This document shows positions 2,673 to 11,335 of a DNA stretch of 11,430 nucleotides, piece by piece. Source of the stretch: Bacteroidales bacterium (GTDB lineage Bacteria; Bacteroidota; Bacteroidia; Bacteroidales; UBA12481). Both the position numbers and the translations under genes were made by a program. The stretch spans positions 1-11,430 of the forward strand of contig JAGHDB010000235.1 in the NCBI GenBank assembly GCA_021160155.1. The letters run 5' to 3'. The notes beneath the pieces are model-generated. The model saw nothing but the letters and a program-made list of their open reading frames with translations, was not told the origin of the DNA and did not search any database. Every line of letters begins with the position of its first letter. Position 1 is the first letter of the stretch.

Positions 2673-2951
2673 ATGGCCAGTCGAAAACATTTAAAAAAAG
2701 ATATCGATTACCTGGTTACCGGACTAATTGCAGATTGCTATCTTTGTATTCAGGAACGTCCGGATCAGGATTTGTCTGAAATTGAGGATATTATCAATAA
2801 TGCAGTTGACCTGAAAGAACAACTGCTGTTTCGGGTTAACCATGTAGATGAAGTACAAGGCTCTAACAGGCCACTCTATCGTACCATCAAACAAGACCTG
2901 CTTAACGGACTTCATGCATCATATGAGAAGTTGAGGGGCGTGATTGAGTAA
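2673..2951 (+). CDS. Conserved-type small helical hypothetical protein (92 aa)
   Basis: A 92-aa soluble protein with no signal peptide or membrane segment, predicted mostly helical: a basic start (RKHLKKDIDYL), a helix with two Cys (IADCYLCIQ), then longer acidic and basic helices. The general plan (basic N-terminus, D/E-I-D/N-Y, then a three- to four-helix bundle of about 90 residues) is like small uncharacterised proteins common in Bacteroidota, but I cannot name a family. Its ATG sits 25 bases after a possible promoter, and its stop is 11 bases before the large membrane protein, so it is probably the first gene of the block. A cytoplasmic partner of the cytoplasmic domains of the next product is a guess from order only. 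Confidence 0.7.
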   Translation: MASRKHLKKDIDYLVTGLIADCYLCIQERPDQDLSEIEDIINNAVDLKEQLLFRVNHVDEVQGSNRPLYRTIKQDLLNGLHASYEKLRGVIE

Positions 2952-2962
2952 ACCAGGATAAA

Positions 2963-5644
2963 ATGCTGTATTTAACTATCCGGCGATTTTTTTGCGGGGT
3001 TGTTTTGATCATAGCAGGGATTTTTCCTTTAACCGGTCAGCAACAAACTCAGGTTTTCCATTGGCTTGATACCAACGAAAAACTCCATAACGGTTTGTTG
3101 AAAGTGGAACTGATTGAGCAAACCAACCGGGTGGTATTTCAGGTAAAGTTCACGGTCACATGGTTTGATCTGAATAGTCAGCCACTCAAACACCAGGATC
3201 AGAAGCCCTATCTCTATCTGTCGAAATACGGATTATTTCTTTCTCCTCCAGAGACCTGTAAGTGCCTGACTTTTGAAGGTACCAATCAGGTTGAACTGGT
3301 TTTTCAGGATGAGGGTCAGCTTTTGATTTCATCAGCCAATACAAAAATGGATACACTGGTTCTAAAAACTGAAATGCATTATGCTTTATCCTATTCGGAT
3401 TACCAGAAGGGTAAATTAGAACCGGTCAGGTCCGATTCGGGCAGTACTTTTTCATTCTCATTTCCATTATATCCTCCTGAACCTGATACTAAAATTCAAA
3501 GAACCGATATTATTGCGAAACAAAATATTCCGCCGCTTTTAAATCCCGCAATAAAGGAGCAGTCAGAACAGATGATTCAACGCCTTGAAATCAGGAAGGC
3601 ACAATTAAATCGCTGGACACTGCCGCCTGAAGTTATTTCCTGGGGGAGCGAATTAGACAGCGTTCCGGTAATTACCAACCAGAGGCAGGCGGATTCTTTA
3701 TCCCCGTTGGTGAATGATGCCCTGTTTTCGCTTCAGCTTCAGATACAGGAAATCGATCAGTTTATCGGAGAGGTGGAAATGAGCCGTCAAAGATTGAATA
3801 AAGACAGCCTGGATGATGTGGATTACACCTCTTTCGAAGAGAGGTTGAATAAATTATGGGACGAATCAGGCCAGGAAAGAGCTAAATATTATCAATTTCA
3901 GCTGACCCTTTTAAAAGTACAAAAAGAAATCAATTCTCATAAAGGGCTACATTATACCGACAGCCTGTTGCAGGTGGCAAAGGCTCGCTTCATTCCTCTT
4001 TTTCGAAAACATATTGATTCGCTTAAGCGACTTGATAATATTTATCAGGTGGTTGCTGCTGATCTTTTGCCGTTTTTTACGGGTCCGCGAACAAAATGGC
4101 AGAATAATCCGGCATTGGATTCAATATCCGGGTTACATGAACGTATCCATATGCTGATGGATCAGTTAAAAGCAGAACATGATCAGGAATGGACAAACTA
4201 CCGCAGTTTTCTGGTTGGGATTGGCCGGGTCAATGAAGTGGAACAACTTCATGCAGACTTCAATGAAAATTATTACCGGATTAATCTGCTGGTCAAAGAA
4301 AACACAAAGAAGATCAGTGAACTACGTATTCCTCTTGAATCCCCGGGATGGTTAAAATCCGGTATTCCTATCTGGATCGGATCGGGTGTCATACTGCTGT
4401 TGCTGGTTATATTGATTGTACGGTATCAATTACGGGCGGGGAAACATGCCCGTGATACGGTTACTCAGGCTTTGGGGCCGTTTGCAATTAAATCGGGTAA
4501 TAACGGTGGCCAAGGGCATTATGCACTGGATCCGGTTGCTTATGAAAATTATTATGAAATTTCGTTTGCCCAAAGAATGCCCGATGTGGTTATCGATAAA
4601 ATTCATTTTCATAATTCTGTAATAAAATCCATCTACCAGATAGTTCATGGGATATTAATGAAGAAAACCCCGTCTGAATTCGGAGGTTTCCTTTTTGGTA
4701 ATCAATACCGCCTGAGAAGTAACGGACATATTAAATATGAACTGTTGGTTGAGAAAGTGGTGCCTGCTTTGTCAATTCGTTTTGATAATGTTGATACGGC
4801 AACTCATGGAGCTGACCTGGTAGATGAACTGGATGAAGCCGTTCGCCAGAACAAAAAATTATTACTGTTGGGCTGGTACGCCTCTTCGATTGATGCAACT
4901 CTTGAAATGGAACCCCAGTTTCAGAAGATTCACCGGACTTTCTTTAGTGAGAAATGGCAAATAGCCCTGCTGATGAATCCCGGTACCGCTAATTTACAAT
5001 CGGCTCTCTTCATGAGAAGAAAAAGCGGATTTTTTGAATCATTTCCTGAACCCGGAGCCCTCCTGAATTGGGACGAACTTTATACGCATGTGATGCATCC
5101 TCGTGTGCATACCCCGGAAAAAGATCCTTTCAGTGATCTTCAGCTCAAAAAAGCATTGAAAATTCCACTGCACTCTGATTGGTGTGATTCAATAATTGAG
5201 ACTTTATGGTTTTTACCTGATATTTTACCTTCTATCATTAAAGATAATGAGATGCAGTTTGAACCGGGTGTCTCTTACCGGGTTACAGGGTTTTTATATG
5301 GCTCTGTAAGAGAATTCTCCCCTCCCGCAGCCAGAAGAAAGGGATATGAAGTAATAGTGACCCGGTTCGTTGAAGCAGTTAACGGGGGCTCCCCAAGAGA
5401 AATCCCGGGATACCATCTTTTAGGATGGTGGGGACAGGGTGCCAGGGAGATACAGGATTTTTTGAATGCTGCTTTAACCTATCATGAGCCACTTTTTACC
5501 GCTCCGTATCATTTCTTCTGCCTCTCAAACAGCCAAAACGGTGAATTGAGAATATTCAGCCGGAATCACCAAATGAGCTTAAATAGAAACCTGATCGATA
5601 CAGAAGAGCTGAATACCAATACCCTGTTGAAAGATAGCCAATGA
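2963..5644 (+). CDS. Membrane-anchored protein with periplasmic helical region and two degenerate JAMM/MPN-like domains
   Basis: The 893-aa product has a signal sequence (about 1-26, ending LTGQQQ), a beta-rich part (about 30-170), a long helical and coiled-coil-prone region (about 190-460), one membrane segment (468-486) followed by basic residues, and a C-terminal part predicted to be cytoplasmic. Residues 555-695 read like a JAB/MPN domain: Glu572 in EFGGFLFG at the usual acidic position, then LLLLGWY at 633-639 where the family has GWYHSHP. The HxH positions are Ala640 and Ser642, and the later Asp position is Phe653, so zinc binding should be lost. Residues 770-880 repeat the plan (TGFLYGS at 775, LLGWWGQG at 819) with even less left. 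An isopeptidase or deubiquitinase activity is therefore unlikely; a scaffold or binding role is more plausible. The fold call is from motif spacing and needs testing. Confidence 0.8.
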   Translation: MLYLTIRRFFCGVVLIIAGIFPLTGQQQTQVFHWLDTNEKLHNGLLKVELIEQTNRVVFQVKFTVTWFDLNSQPLKHQDQKPYLYLSKYGLFLSPPETCKCLTFEGTNQVELVFQDEGQLLISSANTKMDTLVLKTEMHYALSYSDYQKGKLEPVRSDSGSTFSFSFPLYPPEPDTKIQRTDIIAKQNIPPLLNPAIKEQSEQMIQRLEIRKAQLNRWTLPPEVISWGSELDSVPVITNQRQADSLSPLVNDALFSLQLQIQEIDQFIGEVEMSRQRLNKDSLDDVDYTSFEERLNKLWDESGQERAKYYQFQLTLLKVQKEINSHKGLHYTDSLLQVAKARFIPLFRKHIDSLKRLDNIYQVVAADLLPFFTGPRTKWQNNPALDSISGLHERIHMLMDQLKAEHDQEWTNYRSFLVGIGRVNEVEQLHADFNENYYRINLLVKENTKKISELRIPLESPGWLKSGIPIWIGSGVILLLLVILIVRYQLRAGKHARDTVTQALGPFAIKSGNNGGQGHYALDPVAYENYYEISFAQRMPDVVIDKIHFHNSVIKSIYQIVHGILMKKTPSEFGGFLFGNQYRLRSNGHIKYELLVEKVVPALSIRFDNVDTATHGADLVDELDEAVRQNKKLLLLGWYASSIDATLEMEPQFQKIHRTFFSEKWQIALLMNPGTANLQSALFMRRKSGFFESFPEPGALLNWDELYTHVMHPRVHTPEKDPFSDLQLKKALKIPLHSDWCDSIIETLWFLPDILPSIIKDNEMQFEPGVSYRVTGFLYGSVREFSPPAARRKGYEVIVTRFVEAVNGGSPREIPGYHLLGWWGQGAREIQDFLNAALTYHEPLFTAPYHFFCLSNSQNGELRIFSRNHQMSLNRNLIDTEELNTNTLLKDSQ

Positions 5645-5650
5645 TCAATT

Positions 5651-6961
5651 GTGCTTATTGATTCATCCTGCTTTCCCGGTTTCTTATTTTTGTCTTTTTA
5701 TGTACATTTATCGGTTGCAAAACCATTGGGTGTGATAAGAACTTGTTTGAGTATTTTTGTTATATGGCTTCTGTTTGTGCCTGTTTACAGTCACACTCCG
5801 GTTCCCATTTCAAGACACGACTCGTTAAAACAACCGGTCAGAGAACTCCTGAATCAATATGCTCAATTATCTAATCGATTGGATAATAAAAATCAGGAAA
5901 CTCAGATTCGTGAAATTTTAAAACTTTTTGCAAATCCGCGGGTTCAGGTGTTTAACGATCTGGAAACGGAACCTGCGTCAACCGAGCTCAGTGTGGTAGG
6001 GTACTTTGAAAAATTATTGCAGCTTTACCCTGAAGGATTAAAACACTCCTTTACCTGGAATACCTTACATCTAGGCAAACCGGTTTACGATTTCGGAGAG
6101 CGCTATACTGTTCGTGCAGAGGTGGTAAAGGTGCTTCAATCCATGCCAGATCAATCGATGCCTCCGAAGGTAATTAAGTTAGCATTTGATATCGGTTTTT
6201 ATCTGCGTGATGGAATTCCTGTGGATCTGAAAATTATGGAGATATCCCATTCTCTTTCCGGCGATCAGTGGATTCATTTCAGTGCCGCACCCATGATGAC
6301 CCGTTTCACAAACCGGCCGGTATCTGAAGATGAACGGATGACTCTTTTATGGGGCGTAGGTTATCAGTCCCAAATAGATTTTAATCAATTCTTTAGTGAA
6401 CAATGGGGAGTCTCAGCCGGCTTGGGTTATGGGAGTTATCAGGGAGGGGTGGTCTTAGACCATTTTGATGCTTTTTTGGGAATGGATCCTCATTTCACTG
6501 ATGTACATATAATTACACGCCTTCATTATTTGGCGTTGCCGGTCAGCCTGATCTTCCGTTCAAGTTGGAAAGGGAAATTCAACTTGTTGGCCGGGGTGGG
6601 TCTTTCAGGTAATATAAGGCTCTATGAAACAAATTATTCTTCAGCAAAATCAGATCCTGGTGGGAATATCTATGAGTTTGTCTACAGTGAATACGATTGG
6701 GTTAACCAATTATCCCGTATAGGACTTGACATTCATGCATCAGGAGGTGTGGGATATCAGATCGGAGCCCACTGGATGATCTCTCTGGAGATATCGGTAA
6801 ATCAGGGATTGTTTGGATTAGAGCACCAACGAGAACCGAACTATTCAAATTTAAAATATACCGGACAGTTTAATCCCCTTTTCGGTGAACCCGATTATAC
6901 TACACGCCTGTTTGGCTGGTCAACCGGGGTGGGGATCAGTTACCGGTTACTTAAAGATTAA
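5651..6961 (+). CDS. Outer-membrane beta-barrel protein with N-terminal NTF2-like domain
   Basis: The longest frame starts at a GTG at 5651, six bases after the previous stop (436 aa). A GTG at 5732 gives 409 aa starting MIRTCLSIFVIWLLF, a cleaner signal peptide ending near VYSHT, and I think it the likelier start. Using the long numbering, residues 50-205 form a soluble alpha/beta domain with an NTF2/SnoaL-like look (an LFANPRVQVFND helix-strand, a VGYFEKLLQLYP helix, then strands). Residues 231-436 are a porin-like barrel of alternating aromatic strands with many Gly (GVSAGLGYGSYQGG, LLAGVGLSGNIRLY, GVGYQIGAHW) and a final strand VGISYRLL. It should sit in the outer membrane with the front domain in the periplasm. 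It lies between an inner-membrane protein and two lipoproteins, and its ligand is unknown. Confidence 0.75.
   Translation: MLIDSSCFPGFLFLSFYVHLSVAKPLGVIRTCLSIFVIWLLFVPVYSHTPVPISRHDSLKQPVRELLNQYAQLSNRLDNKNQETQIREILKLFANPRVQVFNDLETEPASTELSVVGYFEKLLQLYPEGLKHSFTWNTLHLGKPVYDFGERYTVRAEVVKVLQSMPDQSMPPKVIKLAFDIGFYLRDGIPVDLKIMEISHSLSGDQWIHFSAAPMMTRFTNRPVSEDERMTLLWGVGYQSQIDFNQFFSEQWGVSAGLGYGSYQGGVVLDHFDAFLGMDPHFTDVHIITRLHYLALPVSLIFRSSWKGKFNLLAGVGLSGNIRLYETNYSSAKSDPGGNIYEFVYSEYDWVNQLSRIGLDIHASGGVGYQIGAHWMISLEISVNQGLFGLEHQREPNYSNLKYTGQFNPLFGEPDYTTRLFGWSTGVGISYRLLKD
5658..5692 (+). promoter_or_regulatory. Possible internal promoter before the beta-barrel gene
   Basis: TATTTTTG at 5685-5692 matches the Bacteroidota -7 box TAnnTTTG exactly. 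A TTG at 5658-5660 lies 24 bases upstream, slightly beyond the usual spacing. Transcription from here would fit a translation start at the GTG at 5732. An identical TATTTTTG at 5752-5759 inside the gene shows that chance matches occur. Confidence 0.25.
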
Positions 6962-6976
6962 ATATGAAAGAGTATT

Positions 6977-7345
6977 ATGCAAAGGATATCCGGTAAAATA
7001 ACGCTCTTGATTTTGCTTTGCCTGACAGCTGTCGGGGAAGGGTGTATTCGGATTGATACACCTCCGCAAATGAGTATAACTGTACTGGATGCTGAAGAAC
7101 AACCTGTGTCCGGTGCAGTGGTTGGCCTTTTCGATTCACGGGAAGCATGGAGTAACCGTGAATATCCCGTGCAGGTGTGGAAAGCAACCGATGTTTCTGG
7201 TGAAGTGATCTTTGCCAGTCTGAAAGAACAACTTTATTATATTTATGTCAGAAAAGATTTGGCAGACAATAGTGGGGATATGATCTCAACAACTAATAAA
7301 CTATTGGCAAACCAGCGTTATAAAGTAGTAATTCATATTTATTGA
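6977..7345 (+). CDS. Small probable lipoprotein with Ig-like/carboxypeptidase-regulatory-type fold
   Basis: The 122-aa product starts 15 bases after the barrel gene. Residues 1-22 are an export signal (Arg3, Lys7, hydrophobic 8-19) ending at Cys23 in GEGC, a loose lipobox because Glu is at -2. If Cys23 is lipidated, the protein is an outer-membrane lipoprotein; otherwise it is a periplasmic protein. The rest reads as one beta-sandwich: SITVLDAEEQPVSGAVVGLF is the standard opening of carboxypeptidase-regulatory and Cna-B-like domains, followed by a TDVSGEVIFASL turn-strand and a YYIYVRKD strand. Such domains are structural or adhesive and carry no catalytic residues. It probably works with the barrel protein upstream or the PKD lipoprotein downstream. 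Confidence 0.7.
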   Translation: MQRISGKITLLILLCLTAVGEGCIRIDTPPQMSITVLDAEEQPVSGAVVGLFDSREAWSNREYPVQVWKATDVSGEVIFASLKEQLYYIYVRKDLADNSGDMISTTNKLLANQRYKVVIHIY

Positions 7346-7369
7346 CCTGAAAGAAGGCACTTGCCGCAA

Positions 7370-9661
7370 ATGAAACGCGCATTTTTTATCATAATTATAA
7401 GTATGCTGGTTATCGGTTGCCGACACGAACCGGTTGAAGAGATATCCGGTTCACTGAATGAGGCTTCATCGGTTATTCTGCCGGAGGTTGTCAGACTGGA
7501 CACTTTGGTATATTCGAATCCGCAAATCAGCAATAATCAGGTGCGCTTTGATCTATTGGCTCCCACACAACCCCTTCCTTCGGGAACCGTATTTTATTAT
7601 CCGGGCCGCTGCCCGATCACAGGCCGGGTAGATGAAACTAATCAAACTTCTGACCGGGTTGTTTTGACCATCGAATCTGTTTCTCTTTTTGATCTCTTTC
7701 AGTATTGTGTGTTGAGCGATACAATTATGGATCGTAATCCGGTAAATGAATCATGGCAGGCCGGAGTGATCTCAGACGGTGATTCTGTTTATATTGATTC
7801 ACTGAGCCTGGTCAGTGATAACGGCTCGTTCGGGTCGCTCTCAGCCTATATTCAGTCGGGAACCATTTCACTGAATGACATGTTCCGTTTTTTTCTCTCA
7901 ACCGGATTATCCGATACGGGATCTCATCTGCTTAACAGGATAAGCGGTCGCCTCTCTTTTAATTCTTTCTTCAGGGCGAATGTAGTTGCCGGAACTGATG
8001 AGGCTGTGTCTGGTAAAGACAGCGTATGGGTGGGTACGCGTGTCTATGGTCCGGTTTATATCCAGGATCTTCCGGTTTTCTTTTATCATAATATTTGGGC
8101 GGGTATTGAACTTACAACCGAACGTGAAGGTACTTACCAAATTAATGCTGCATTAAGTGTTAATGGGTCTGCCCGGTTTCATTATGAGTCATGGGCAGGC
8201 TGGGCAAACTCAACCGGAGTTACTTCATGGGAAGGGAATCTTGATTCCGTATCCGGCCCGGTTTATGCAGGGTATGTGTATCGCTTTTTTATTACTTCGT
8301 CCTGGGTCCCGGTAATTTGCGGTAGTTCGTTAAGTAGATTTGAATACTCTCTGAATGCCCTTGTACAAAGAGATTTTGACTTGACTTCTTATGTTGAAAC
8401 CCATACGACTTTCTCCTCTGCGGGAATGGCAGGCGATTACGCTCTTTTGAAGGATGAACTCCCTGCGTTTCAGTCTGCCGAAACCAGGGAACTTTCCCGT
8501 GAGAGCCGTTCCGGAGCATTGGCTAACCTTCCTCCGACTGCCAGCTTCGGAGTTTCCCCTGCAGCGGGATATACTGATACAAATTTCAAATTTGATGCTT
8601 CCGCTTCAACCGACCTCGAAGATCTGACAGAACAATTGCAGGTTCGATGGGATTTTAATGGAGATAATCATTATGATACCGAATATAGTTACGACAAAGT
8701 TATTTTTCACCAGTATGCTTTCCCCGGTTCTTATGATGTGGTTTTAGAGGTTACTGACCGGAATGGGCTGACCGATTATGCAACTACGAACGTCCGGGTA
8801 GAACTATCCGCATCTGCCCCTATTGCATTTTTTACGATTAATCCGGAAACGGGCAGAACAAATAACTATTTTGTTTTTGATGCATCCGGGTCATATGACA
8901 GTGAAGACCCTATAAATGCCTTAAAGGTTCGATGGGATTTTGAGAATGACGGACTATGGAATACTGCTTTTTCAGTTAATAAGGCAGCAGTCCATTATTA
9001 TACCGATGCGGGTACGTATGTGATTAAAATGGAGATAATTGACACAGACGGTCTCACCGGATCTACTACTAAGAAACTGGTTGTACTGCCTGCGAATGTT
9101 AAGCCTACAGCACATTATACAGTCATTCCTGAAAATGGAACTACCGAAACGATCTTTTCATTTGATGCCGGCTCATCATCTGACCCTGAAGATGCGGTTG
9201 ACGATCTGCTGGTAAGATGGGACTGGGAGAATGACGGTGTTTGGGATACCGAATACCGACAGGAAAAAACCATCAGGCGCCGGTTTGTTACAGCTGGTGA
9301 ATACCAGGTGGTTCTGGAGGTTGAAGATACCGAAGGGTTTGCCAGCACCTACTCCAGCATCATAACCGTCACGGATCCGAATACTCCTCCAACTGCAGAT
9401 TTTGTCATTCAACCTGCCAGCGGAACCGTGGATACTACTTTTGTGTTTGATGCTTCTTTATCCACTGATCATGAAGATGCTGTTGACTCTTTGGAAGTTC
9501 GCTGGGATTGGGACAATGATGATGTGTATGATACGGATTTTACCACCGATAAAGTAATCCATAAAAAATTTAGTCAAACAGGTACCTTTATTATCAAAGT
9601 GCAGGTAAGGGATTCCGGTGGTTTGACGGATACCAAAGCCAGACTCCTGGTAATTAACTAG
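7370..9661 (+). CDS. PKD-repeat lipoprotein (763 aa)
   Basis: I chose the ATG at 7370 over the in-frame TTG at 7361 because it gives a compact type II signal: MKRAFF, a hydrophobic stretch, then LVIGC with the canonical lipobox and Cys17. Residues about 25-385 are beta-rich and unlike any family I can name; several aromatic-rich strands (YVYRFFITSSW, HYESWAGWANS) suggest one or two binding or sandwich domains. From residue 388 four PKD domains of about 94-96 residues follow, each with FDAS-like, RWD and GLT motifs. The protein ends directly after the fourth repeat, with no type IX sorting domain. It is probably anchored in the outer membrane, perhaps facing outward, and may bind glycan or protein. 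It is the last gene of the block. Confidence 0.85.
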   Translation: MKRAFFIIIISMLVIGCRHEPVEEISGSLNEASSVILPEVVRLDTLVYSNPQISNNQVRFDLLAPTQPLPSGTVFYYPGRCPITGRVDETNQTSDRVVLTIESVSLFDLFQYCVLSDTIMDRNPVNESWQAGVISDGDSVYIDSLSLVSDNGSFGSLSAYIQSGTISLNDMFRFFLSTGLSDTGSHLLNRISGRLSFNSFFRANVVAGTDEAVSGKDSVWVGTRVYGPVYIQDLPVFFYHNIWAGIELTTEREGTYQINAALSVNGSARFHYESWAGWANSTGVTSWEGNLDSVSGPVYAGYVYRFFITSSWVPVICGSSLSRFEYSLNALVQRDFDLTSYVETHTTFSSAGMAGDYALLKDELPAFQSAETRELSRESRSGALANLPPTASFGVSPAAGYTDTNFKFDASASTDLEDLTEQLQVRWDFNGDNHYDTEYSYDKVIFHQYAFPGSYDVVLEVTDRNGLTDYATTNVRVELSASAPIAFFTINPETGRTNNYFVFDASGSYDSEDPINALKVRWDFENDGLWNTAFSVNKAAVHYYTDAGTYVIKMEIIDTDGLTGSTTKKLVVLPANVKPTAHYTVIPENGTTETIFSFDAGSSSDPEDAVDDLLVRWDWENDGVWDTEYRQEKTIRRRFVTAGEYQVVLEVEDTEGFASTYSSIITVTDPNTPPTADFVIQPASGTVDTTFVFDASLSTDHEDAVDSLEVRWDWDNDDVYDTDFTTDKVIHKKFSQTGTFIIKVQVRDSGGLTDTKARLLVIN
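8531..9658 (+). repeat. Four tandem PKD domain repeats (about 285 bp each)
   Basis: Repeat units start near 8531, 8819, 9104 and 9386. Each encodes a Pro-rich start with a [GS]xxxPxxG segment, FDAS or FDAG, S-x-D-x-E-D, a [VR]RWD[FW] core, a G-[ST/E]-[YF] strand and a D-x-x-GL/GF near the end. The core positions form a DxDxDGxxD-like loop: DFNGDNHYD, DFENDGLWN, DWENDGVWD and DWDNDDVYD. The DNA has diverged between copies, with only the core (GTTCGATGGGATTTT and close variants) still clearly alike, so the duplications are old. Confidence 0.85.
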
Positions 9662-10111: not shown

Positions 10112-11335
10112 TTATTCTGGTTTCTTTTGAACCGGGTGCAACCATCCTGACTGGTCCGTAAGACGGAGTGCGGTTACGAGAAAGAGCACATATCCAACCA
10201 CAGGGGTCTGTTGCGTACCAAAAATCATCATAAATAATCCGGGGACCATTAATACAAGCAAAATACGTGTATAACTCTTGAGGAATTTTCCGGAACGTCT
10301 GAACCAGACCAATACCGGAATGATGAGATGCAGGGGGAATGCCCACACCAGGTTCAGATTGGCGTGACTGACCTGATGGGCAGAGAAAACCCACATAAAC
10401 AGGAAAAGAGAACCGGTTAATCCGATGAGGAGAAACAGTAGTGAATCGAACAGCCTGCTTTCAAAACTTTCGGGGTTACGAAACATAAACAGAAGCACCG
10501 AAATCAATAAGATTACCAGGCTGATGGTGACCGGAGAGGCCCAGGAAGAATGTCGGGCTTTAACGTTTTGAGCTTTAAAAATGGTTCGAGAACCGGAAAC
10601 CAGTGGCAGATTGTCAGTGTCCCGTGCCACGGAAAACAGCTCTTCCATCCGGTTGGGAAGAAACATATACTCCCAATCAGAAGCCGGTTGATCTGCCCCC
10701 CGGGTTAATAAAAGGAAAATACCTGTTTGAACCCAGGGAATGGGTGCCAGAAGTGATTCAAGAAGCGCTCTGAAACTTTTGTGATCGTCGGAGTTCTCAG
10801 GCAGAATGAACCGGTTTCCTGACGCTTTGAAAACTATATCGCGAATCCGGGTGGAACAATTATCATAAAAGAAGTCATACCGGTAATACCGGTTCTCCGG
10901 CAGGTAGTTGGTTTCAAGAAGCTGAAAAAGGAGTTGTTTCTCTTTTGATGTTAAATTCAACACCTGTTCTCTGACCGAACGGTTTTCCCGAACATAATCC
11001 TGATAGAAATAGTTAAAAGCGGAAACGGACAATTTGTAATTTAATCTGCCCCTCATAAACTTCAGGTAAAAATGAGGTGTATCAAAGTCGAAAGTCCCGT
11101 AATTATAAACCCGGTCAATATGCCTGTACGGATCGTAAACCCACAGAGCACTGTGCCCGAAAACCGAATAGAGCTCCTGACCGGGATCACAGGTAAGCAG
11201 GCTGACTCTTGCCTGATCACTGAGTTTGGGGGCTGAGAATTGCCCCGATAAATGAGTTGAATAAAAAAATAAAAAAAAGATTAAAAACAGGGATAGATGG
11301 CGTGGTTTTCGAATGAAGTGAAATATGCTGCTCAT
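10112..11335 (-). CDS. lnb: Lnb-type lipoprotein N-acyltransferase (DUF4105 family)
   Basis: The 407-aa product has an N-terminal signal or anchor (basic RKPRH at 9-13, hydrophobic 14-31), a periplasmic domain (about 38-250) and five likely membrane segments (about 267-285, 297-316, 324-342, 351-369 and 373-390). The periplasmic part carries DUF4105/Lnb hallmarks: TCDPGQELYSVFGHSALWV with His61, the FDFDTPHFYLKFMRGRLNY block, FFYDNCSTRIRD with Cys160, and a PWVQTG...EYMFLP segment. The Cys and His fit the papain-like catalytic pair expected for this family. In Bacteroides, Lnb adds the third acyl chain to the N-terminal Cys of lipoproteins and replaces the Lnt found in Proteobacteria. Length and topology fit a full-length member. 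Family membership is strong; the exact activity is by analogy. The start at 11335 gives a good signal sequence. Confidence 0.8.
   Translation of the reverse strand: MSSIFHFIRKPRHLSLFLIFFLFFYSTHLSGQFSAPKLSDQARVSLLTCDPGQELYSVFGHSALWVYDPYRHIDRVYNYGTFDFDTPHFYLKFMRGRLNYKLSVSAFNYFYQDYVRENRSVREQVLNLTSKEKQLLFQLLETNYLPENRYYRYDFFYDNCSTRIRDIVFKASGNRFILPENSDDHKSFRALLESLLAPIPWVQTGIFLLLTRGADQPASDWEYMFLPNRMEELFSVARDTDNLPLVSGSRTIFKAQNVKARHSSWASPVTISLVILLISVLLFMFRNPESFESRLFDSLLFLLIGLTGSLFLFMWVFSAHQVSHANLNLVWAFPLHLIIPVLVWFRRSGKFLKSYTRILLVLMVPGLFMMIFGTQQTPVVGYVLFLVTALRLTDQSGWLHPVQKKPE

Follow-up and report, generated by a model that had tools for sequence, protein, structure and literature searches.

Pairs of MPN domains are used as docking modules in Rpn8/Rpn11, CSN6 and EMC8/9, and the most familiar inactive MPN domains are those of the eukaryotic lid, signalosome, eIF3 and EMC complexes; pseudo-deubiquitinases can retain binding surfaces. 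The window, by which the whole analysed stretch of 11,430 nucleotides from a Bacteroidales genome (GCA_021160155.1, contig JAGHDB010000235.1) is meant, encodes a protein that differs from the eukaryotic MPN-minus proteins (Rpn8, CSN6, eIF3 subunits, EMC8/9) in that its two MPN domains lie in one membrane-spanning bacterial chain, and in that no active JAMM partner was found in its own genome (81.6% complete). It differs likewise from BRCC36–KIAA0157 (5cw3), a soluble pair of an active and an inactive protein, by carrying two inactive copies in one chain.

In prokaryotes, operons uniting JAB, E1, E2 and ubiquitin-like (Ubl) genes, one kind of them with a RING gene, have already been described in passages of PMC1779556 and PMC7159879. 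The Bil and Bub bacterial ubiquitin-like pathways contain the same kinds of part (E1, E2, Ubl and JAMM) as the gene cassettes found with relatives of the window protein, which differ by their separate E1 and E2, their membrane JAMM protein and their vWA/RING protein. An E1/E2/Ubl/JAMM operon of the Bil/Bub kind is absent from the window, as judged from its open reading frames and Pfam matches.

The features of the window protein and its gene cluster are listed in Table 1. The topology, read from a basic segment, RYQLRAGKHAR, that follows the transmembrane helix, is that of a protein with a signal peptide and a single membrane passage, and on these grounds both MPN domains are predicted to be cytoplasmic. 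The full-length AlphaFold2 model (16 sequences; mean pLDDT 76.8, pTM 0.31) contained the beta domain, the long helices, among them a single helix spanning residues 285-373, and two C-terminal alpha/beta domains, while a separate model restricted to residues 520-893 (21 sequences) reached a mean pLDDT of 82.4 and a pTM of 0.73. The long helical periplasmic part that had been proposed from the sequence agrees with the model and with the homologues.

Table 1. Coordinates, strand and basis of assignment of the features in the window
Feature	Position	Strand	Basis or occurrence
92-aa protein upstream of the MPN gene, 11 bases between	2673..2951	+	Seven of 12 family genomes; immediately upstream of the MPN gene in six
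Gene of 893-aa membrane protein with two inactive MPN domains	2963..5644	+	Open reading frame and Bacteroidota homologues
Signal peptide, about residues 1-25	2963..3037	+	Hydrophobic N-terminus; predicted cleavage
Periplasmic beta domain, residues 27-168	3041..3466	+	AlphaFold2 strands; homologous domain in P0016-P0020
Long helical, coiled-coil-like region, residues 195-455	3545..4327	+	AlphaFold2 secondary structure; putative coiled coil
Single transmembrane helix, residues 468-495	4364..4447	+	Hydropathy and model helix
MPN domain 1, residues 541-714, zinc ligands lost	4583..5104	+	
Glu572, position of the catalytic Glu	4676..4678	+	Family alignment
Ala640-Ser641-Ser642, at His-Thr-His of relatives	4880..4888	+	Alignments
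Phe653, position of the zinc-binding Asp	4919..4921	+	Family alignment
MPN domain 2, residues 733-885, without HxH	5159..5617	+	hhalign and alignments
Outer-membrane beta-barrel protein with N-terminal domain	5651..6961	+	PF13568, E 1e-9
122-aa putative lipoprotein	6977..7345	+	Weak CarboxypepD_reg; N-terminus; in 9 of 12 family genomes
Putative lipoprotein with four PKD domains	7361..9661	+	PF18911, E 5e-31, four stretches; N-terminus; in 10 of 12 family genomes

The MPN gene and the three genes that follow it (barrel, 122-aa and PKD genes) are co-directional, with gaps of 6, 15 and 15 bases. At least part of the MPN gene is present in all 12 family genomes, some copies being fragments at contig ends, and the barrel gene adjoins it in all 12, with only a fragment before the contig end in G002 and G004. 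The contig ends before the PKD gene in G009 and G004 (likely continuation C182), and this gene is split into two open reading frames in the G008 record. The upstream neighbours vary: the 92-aa gene stands directly upstream in six genomes, and a much longer gene, reaching about 1630 aa, in three. Profiles of the barrel, 122-aa, PKD and 92-aa genes gave no match at E 0.01 in the cassette loci L037-L117. Among the 87 other genomes of the order that were searched, 28 gave weaker matches to the barrel, so that this type of barrel is not private to the cluster.

The beta domain of the window protein also forms the N-terminal part of caspase-type (Peptidase_C14) and OmpA-domain proteins in other Bacteroidales. 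Matches in three genomes (L127, 7769-9313; L128, 6720-8675 and 9083-10303; L135, 1471-3297; E 5e-10 to 2e-13) all adjoin barrels related to that of the window, which supports an envelope task of the beta domain that is independent of the MPN part. Elsewhere in the window, a gene for lipoprotein N-acyltransferase Lnb lies on the minus strand at 10112-11335 (PF13387, E 2.3e-28; NF051878, E 1.8e-84, below its cut-off), and the Lnb cluster is present in seven loci of the family. A distant relative of L-fucose isomerase, with its N-terminus cut, occupies 18-1217 and is open at the contig start (PF07882, E 2.5e-14).

With the window protein alone as the query, no match was obtained in Pfam, NCBIfam, PADLOC or a PDB sequence search, and a contig scan of genomes with the same single query detected no relative. 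PF01398 matched just 3 of 16 aligned proteins (the family and P0016) even at E up to 10. Simple family scans therefore miss this protein, and homologues are needed. When a profile of nine relatives with intact JAMM was used, hhalign gave a probability of 99.4% for copy 1 (0.5% with the reversed profile) and 98.7% for copy 2 (0.2% reversed), and copy 2 matched copy 1 at 98.6% (18.5% reversed). The N-terminal beta domain and the coiled coil of the same protein, taken as controls, gave 0.4% and 0.1% against the intact JAMM profile. Since the scores are far above those of the reversed profiles and of the protein's own N-terminal controls, the MPN match is more than chance.

The Foldseek searches bear mainly on copy 1. 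The best match of the C-terminal model was BRCC36–KIAA0157 (E 5.6e-7); in one search of the PDB, unrelated receptor chains also appeared at E about 1e-3, with a probability of 0.3 or less. Assignment of both copies to the MPN (JAB) superfamily is thus supported, that of copy 1 by profiles, the AlphaFold2 model and the PDB searches. For copy 2 it is supported mainly by profiles, and the strand order of its model domain fits MPN. The original prediction had named the motifs EFGGFLFG, LLLLGWY at 633-639, Ala640, Ser642, Phe653 and an FF pair in copy 1, and TGFLYGS and LLGWWGQG in copy 2; all are present in the translation, the FF pair at 660-661, and the stretch from GWY to FF aligns without gaps with HTHP-bearing relatives, as had been predicted. 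Its main proposal, a single-pass membrane protein whose double MPN module is inactive, agrees with homologues, profile comparison, AlphaFold2 models and PDB fold searches.

The replacement of the zinc ligands extends to the whole family of the window protein. Among its 15 members (P0001-P0015), the two His columns of copy 1 hold A/T/S and S/A/V, with His in 0 of 15 at either position, and the column of the zinc-binding Asp holds F/Q/L. The Ser column is occupied by E/P/K/Q/N/S, with Ser in one member only and E650 in the window protein. The catalytic Glu is found in the window protein only, the other 14 members having Asp (13) or Ala (1). The set of Glu, HxHP, Ser and Asp that marks a JAMM/MPN-plus metalloprotease is thus broken in the window protein (A640, S642, E650 and F653), which has an MPN fold without zinc ligands, of the type of Rpn8 and CSN6. 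Five unannotated Bacteroidota proteins (P0016-P0020) are full-length homologues with the same beta domain, transmembrane helix and two MPN domains, and differ from the family in that Glu, HTHP and Ser are kept and Asn replaces Asp. All five active-site residues are retained in P0021-P0036. A second MPN copy without HxH is carried also by P0016-P0021, L039 and L040.

Descent was examined on a tree of 77 MPN domains: 15 of the window family, five of P0016 type, three tandem ones with Asp, 34 long single-MPN ones, 12 short or soluble ones and eight of the outgroup. Twelve rows that were near-duplicate or short/partial (including L094), rows of fewer than 110 residues or not matched by the MPN1 profile, and, apart from five outgroup loci, all loci from L083 onward were omitted. 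The members of the window family group together as a single clade (100/100), with the HTHP-bearing P0016-P0020 as their sister group (100/98), and both groups nest in a 34-row clade of Bacteroidota JAMM proteins (96/87), all of whose members outside the window family keep HxHP. This clade also includes short JAMM proteins without a membrane part, and some of its inner branches are weak (83/76, 81/70, 83/37). On this tree, with its weak inner branches, the window family descends from the clade of Bacteroidota membrane JAMM proteins. The stem branch of the family is long (1.42), and the His pair was probably lost once, on this stem, one loss being enough.

The relationship extends beyond the first MPN domain. 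P0016-P0020 carry a match to the window protein's N-terminal beta domain (E 2e-18 to 2e-40), and copy 2 of the family matches the second MPN of L039, L040 and P0021 at 95.4% (0.4% reversed). The N-terminal region of these last three proteins matches that of the family with P0016-P0020 at 82% (0.1% reversed), and at only 23% with a narrower profile. No locus of P0016 type was present among the matches in 4 of 395 genomes of the phylum and 13 of 393 of the order; since the gene neighbourhood of P0016-P0020 was not found, the case for descent from a cassette draws on the wider clade instead of the sister group. Another membrane JAMM protein of Bacteroidales was noticed at L147 (1072-2706, minus strand; G187), in which HSHPGLGLFLSNQD is intact and the region after it seems degenerate on visual inspection.

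A contig scan with the intact relatives found 79 distinct loci among 91 that encode a relative. The Bacteroidota set comprises 41 of these loci (L039-L077, L082 and L094), and cassette genes were searched in them by tblastn (E 1e-4) with queries taken from contig G027:C685, the contig to which L040 and L043 themselves belong. E1 and E2 were present in the same 33 of 41 loci, the vWA/RING protein in 31 and Ubl in 25; E1 was also found in 23 of the 38 loci outside this set. The eight loci free of E1 and E2 include two second copies on contigs already counted (L041 and L043), and in the other six (L047, L049, L054, L062, L065 and L072) the contig is short or the match lies near the start of the stretch examined. 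On G027:C685 the order by Pfam is ThiF, YukD/ubiquitin-like, UQ_con, JAB, vWA (weak Prok-RING_1), SrfB and Virul_Fac, the Ubl, E2 and RING matches being under the Pfam cut-offs, and E1 of L037 matches the E1-E2 models of PADLOC. SrfB and Virul_Fac genes lie between the two JAMM genes of this contig, and a two-copy Ubl protein, a JAB protein, a subtilase, TerB and a transglutaminase-like protein are encoded downstream (L037/L038).

The JAMM proteins of Bacteroidota cassettes, for example those of Portibacter lacus (L064) and Neolewinella xylanilytica (L074), share with the window protein an N-terminal signal, a periplasmic part, one transmembrane helix and a C-terminal MPN domain, and those of L039 (a MAG labelled Draconibacterium), L040 (Bacteroidales MAG GMC9) and P0021 share the degenerate second MPN as well. 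They differ in keeping Glu, HxHP, Ser and Asp and in standing with E1, E2 and often Ubl. In its design the window protein falls within a broader group of membrane JAMM proteins of Bacteroidota, which are linked to ubiquitin-like conjugation genes.

No such partner was detected for the family itself. E1, E2 and Ubl genes are absent from the window by open reading frames and Pfam, and profiles of cassette-type E2 and Ubl were silent in all 12 family genomes; the same profiles match G027, whose own sequences are contained in both. PF01398 and PF14464 gave no match in the genome of the window (411 contigs), and PF01398 none in the family genomes G003 and G005. The family genomes are 62 to 100% complete, and these absences are therefore not final. 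The proposal that the inactive protein pairs with an active JAMM subunit thus found no support in these searches, nor was a ubiquitin-like partner of cassette type found.

An intact cassette beside contractile-injection genes was the most surprising side result. In locus L133 (G056:C129:20000-38000), the stretch 3296-13403 encodes a Ubl-like protein with IAG as its last residues, an E2-like protein, a membrane JAMM protein with intact HSHP, a vWA/RING protein with multiple transmembrane segments, a barrel and E1, and this cassette sits inside a type VI secretion (T6SS) cluster, with VgrG before it and TssK, TssE and TssF after it. Its Ubl, E2 and JAB do not reach the Pfam cut-offs; its E1 and E2 are tied by tblastn to other cassettes, such as L039 (4e-118 and 2e-41). 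Cassettes also adjoin TssN/TssK in Neolewinella L074, TssK in L066, L070 and L073, and TssF with gp25 in L044, and the cassette of P. lacus L064 adjoins an eCIS core, PAAR and an nSTAND NTPase. By tblastn with G056 proteins, T6SS genes were detected in 5 of the 41 Bacteroidota loci, L073 and L074 being near relatives. TssN is reported, in a passage of PMC10781749, to use a ubiquitin-like domain as a docking hub, and a ubiquitin-like fold beside T6SS genes need not therefore mean conjugation; here E1, E2 and JAMM are also present. No Ubl-conjugation cassette inside a Bacteroidota T6SS was named in titles or abstract openings among the matches listed, a search with subscription papers outside its scope.

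On balance, the window protein would be a pseudo-deubiquitinase kept as the cytosolic scaffold of a trans-envelope assembly, together with the outer-membrane barrel and the putative PKD lipoprotein and without a ubiquitin-like modifier; we regard this function, assigned by analogy, as somewhat probable. The ancestor, to judge from sequence, tree and prediction, would have been a membrane-anchored JAMM protein like those of Bacteroidota conjugation cassettes, and its layout of periplasmic domain, helical region, one transmembrane helix, a catalytic-type MPN and a degenerate MPN would have been kept, with the zinc ligands of the first MPN lost at the base of the family. By analogy, the two MPN domains could form a cytosolic binding platform, the helical region and the beta domain may span the periplasm toward the barrel and the putative PKD lipoprotein, and the whole protein might tie a cytosolic partner to the outer-membrane assembly. 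Contact with barrel and lipoprotein is suggested by gene neighbourhood and predicted helices, and neighbourhood can reflect regulation instead of contact. The comparisons with EMC and with EccD/TssN are analogies in the same sense. The fuller historical reading, that a Bacteroidales lineage turned the membrane deubiquitinase of a Ubl system into the pseudoenzyme scaffold of a new barrel/lipoprotein trans-envelope complex after losing the modifier system, is offered tentatively, as a possibility rather than an expectation.

The distribution of constraint along the protein bears on several alternatives. The MPN part is the best conserved part: within the family, mean pairwise identity reaches 0.56 in MPN1 and 0.49 in MPN2 and falls to 0.32 in the beta domain and 0.25 in the helical region. 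Between G006 and G009, dN amounts to 0.07 and 0.10 for the two MPN domains and to 0.30 for the N-terminal part, dS being about 2 or beyond estimation. A gene in decay, with an active site that drifted after the conjugation system was lost, would account for the missing zinc ligands and the long stem branch, but is disfavoured to the point of being hardly credible, because the MPN domains are the most conserved, nonsynonymous change is far below synonymous change, matches occur in all 12 family genomes, and the one stop reported in G005 is the gene's own end, with none inside. The same gradient, with conserved cytosolic MPN domains and a variable periplasmic part, resembles a fixed output, as expected of the main rival: an envelope sensor, in which the beta domain monitors the state of the barrel or of the lipoproteins, encoded in the same cluster, and the MPN pair binds or releases a cytosolic regulator. 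No constant regulator gene is found in the cluster, however, and its upstream neighbours vary, and we consider a sensor unlikely.

Two further alternatives start from the relatives. A dead JAMM that binds a ubiquitin-like protein without cutting it, as a receptor or decoy, would fit the Ubl genes that adjoin the wider relatives and the general capacity of pseudo-deubiquitinases to keep binding surfaces; in view of the silence of the cassette-type Ubl and E2 profiles throughout the family genomes, it is quite improbable. That the protein belongs, as a membrane component, to an injection machine of the type VI or eCIS kind might be thought of because relatives' cassettes adjoin such genes in several genomes, and is less probable still, indeed very improbable: no such genes are present in the window by Pfam, and the TssF profile PF05947, which finds its target in G056, matched 0 of 12 family genomes, although it is silent also in the cassette-bearing G027. 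A link of the family to type VI secretion thus has no support from this profile.

In titles and abstract openings among the matches listed, no description of a bacterial inactive tandem MPN membrane protein was found, and what appears to be new here is a membrane JAMM protein turned pseudoenzyme, its novelty not being proven. A conserved, unannotated envelope gene cluster is now named, and the cassette beside injection machines merits a study of its own. The bacterial proteins form a series from an intact JAMM in an E1-E2-Ubl cassette, through the form with HTHP and Asn, to a dead tandem MPN outside any Ubl context that was found, and this series allows testing how a deubiquitinase becomes a scaffold. 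If the scaffold reading is true, the window family would be a bacterial parallel to Rpn8 or EMC8/9.
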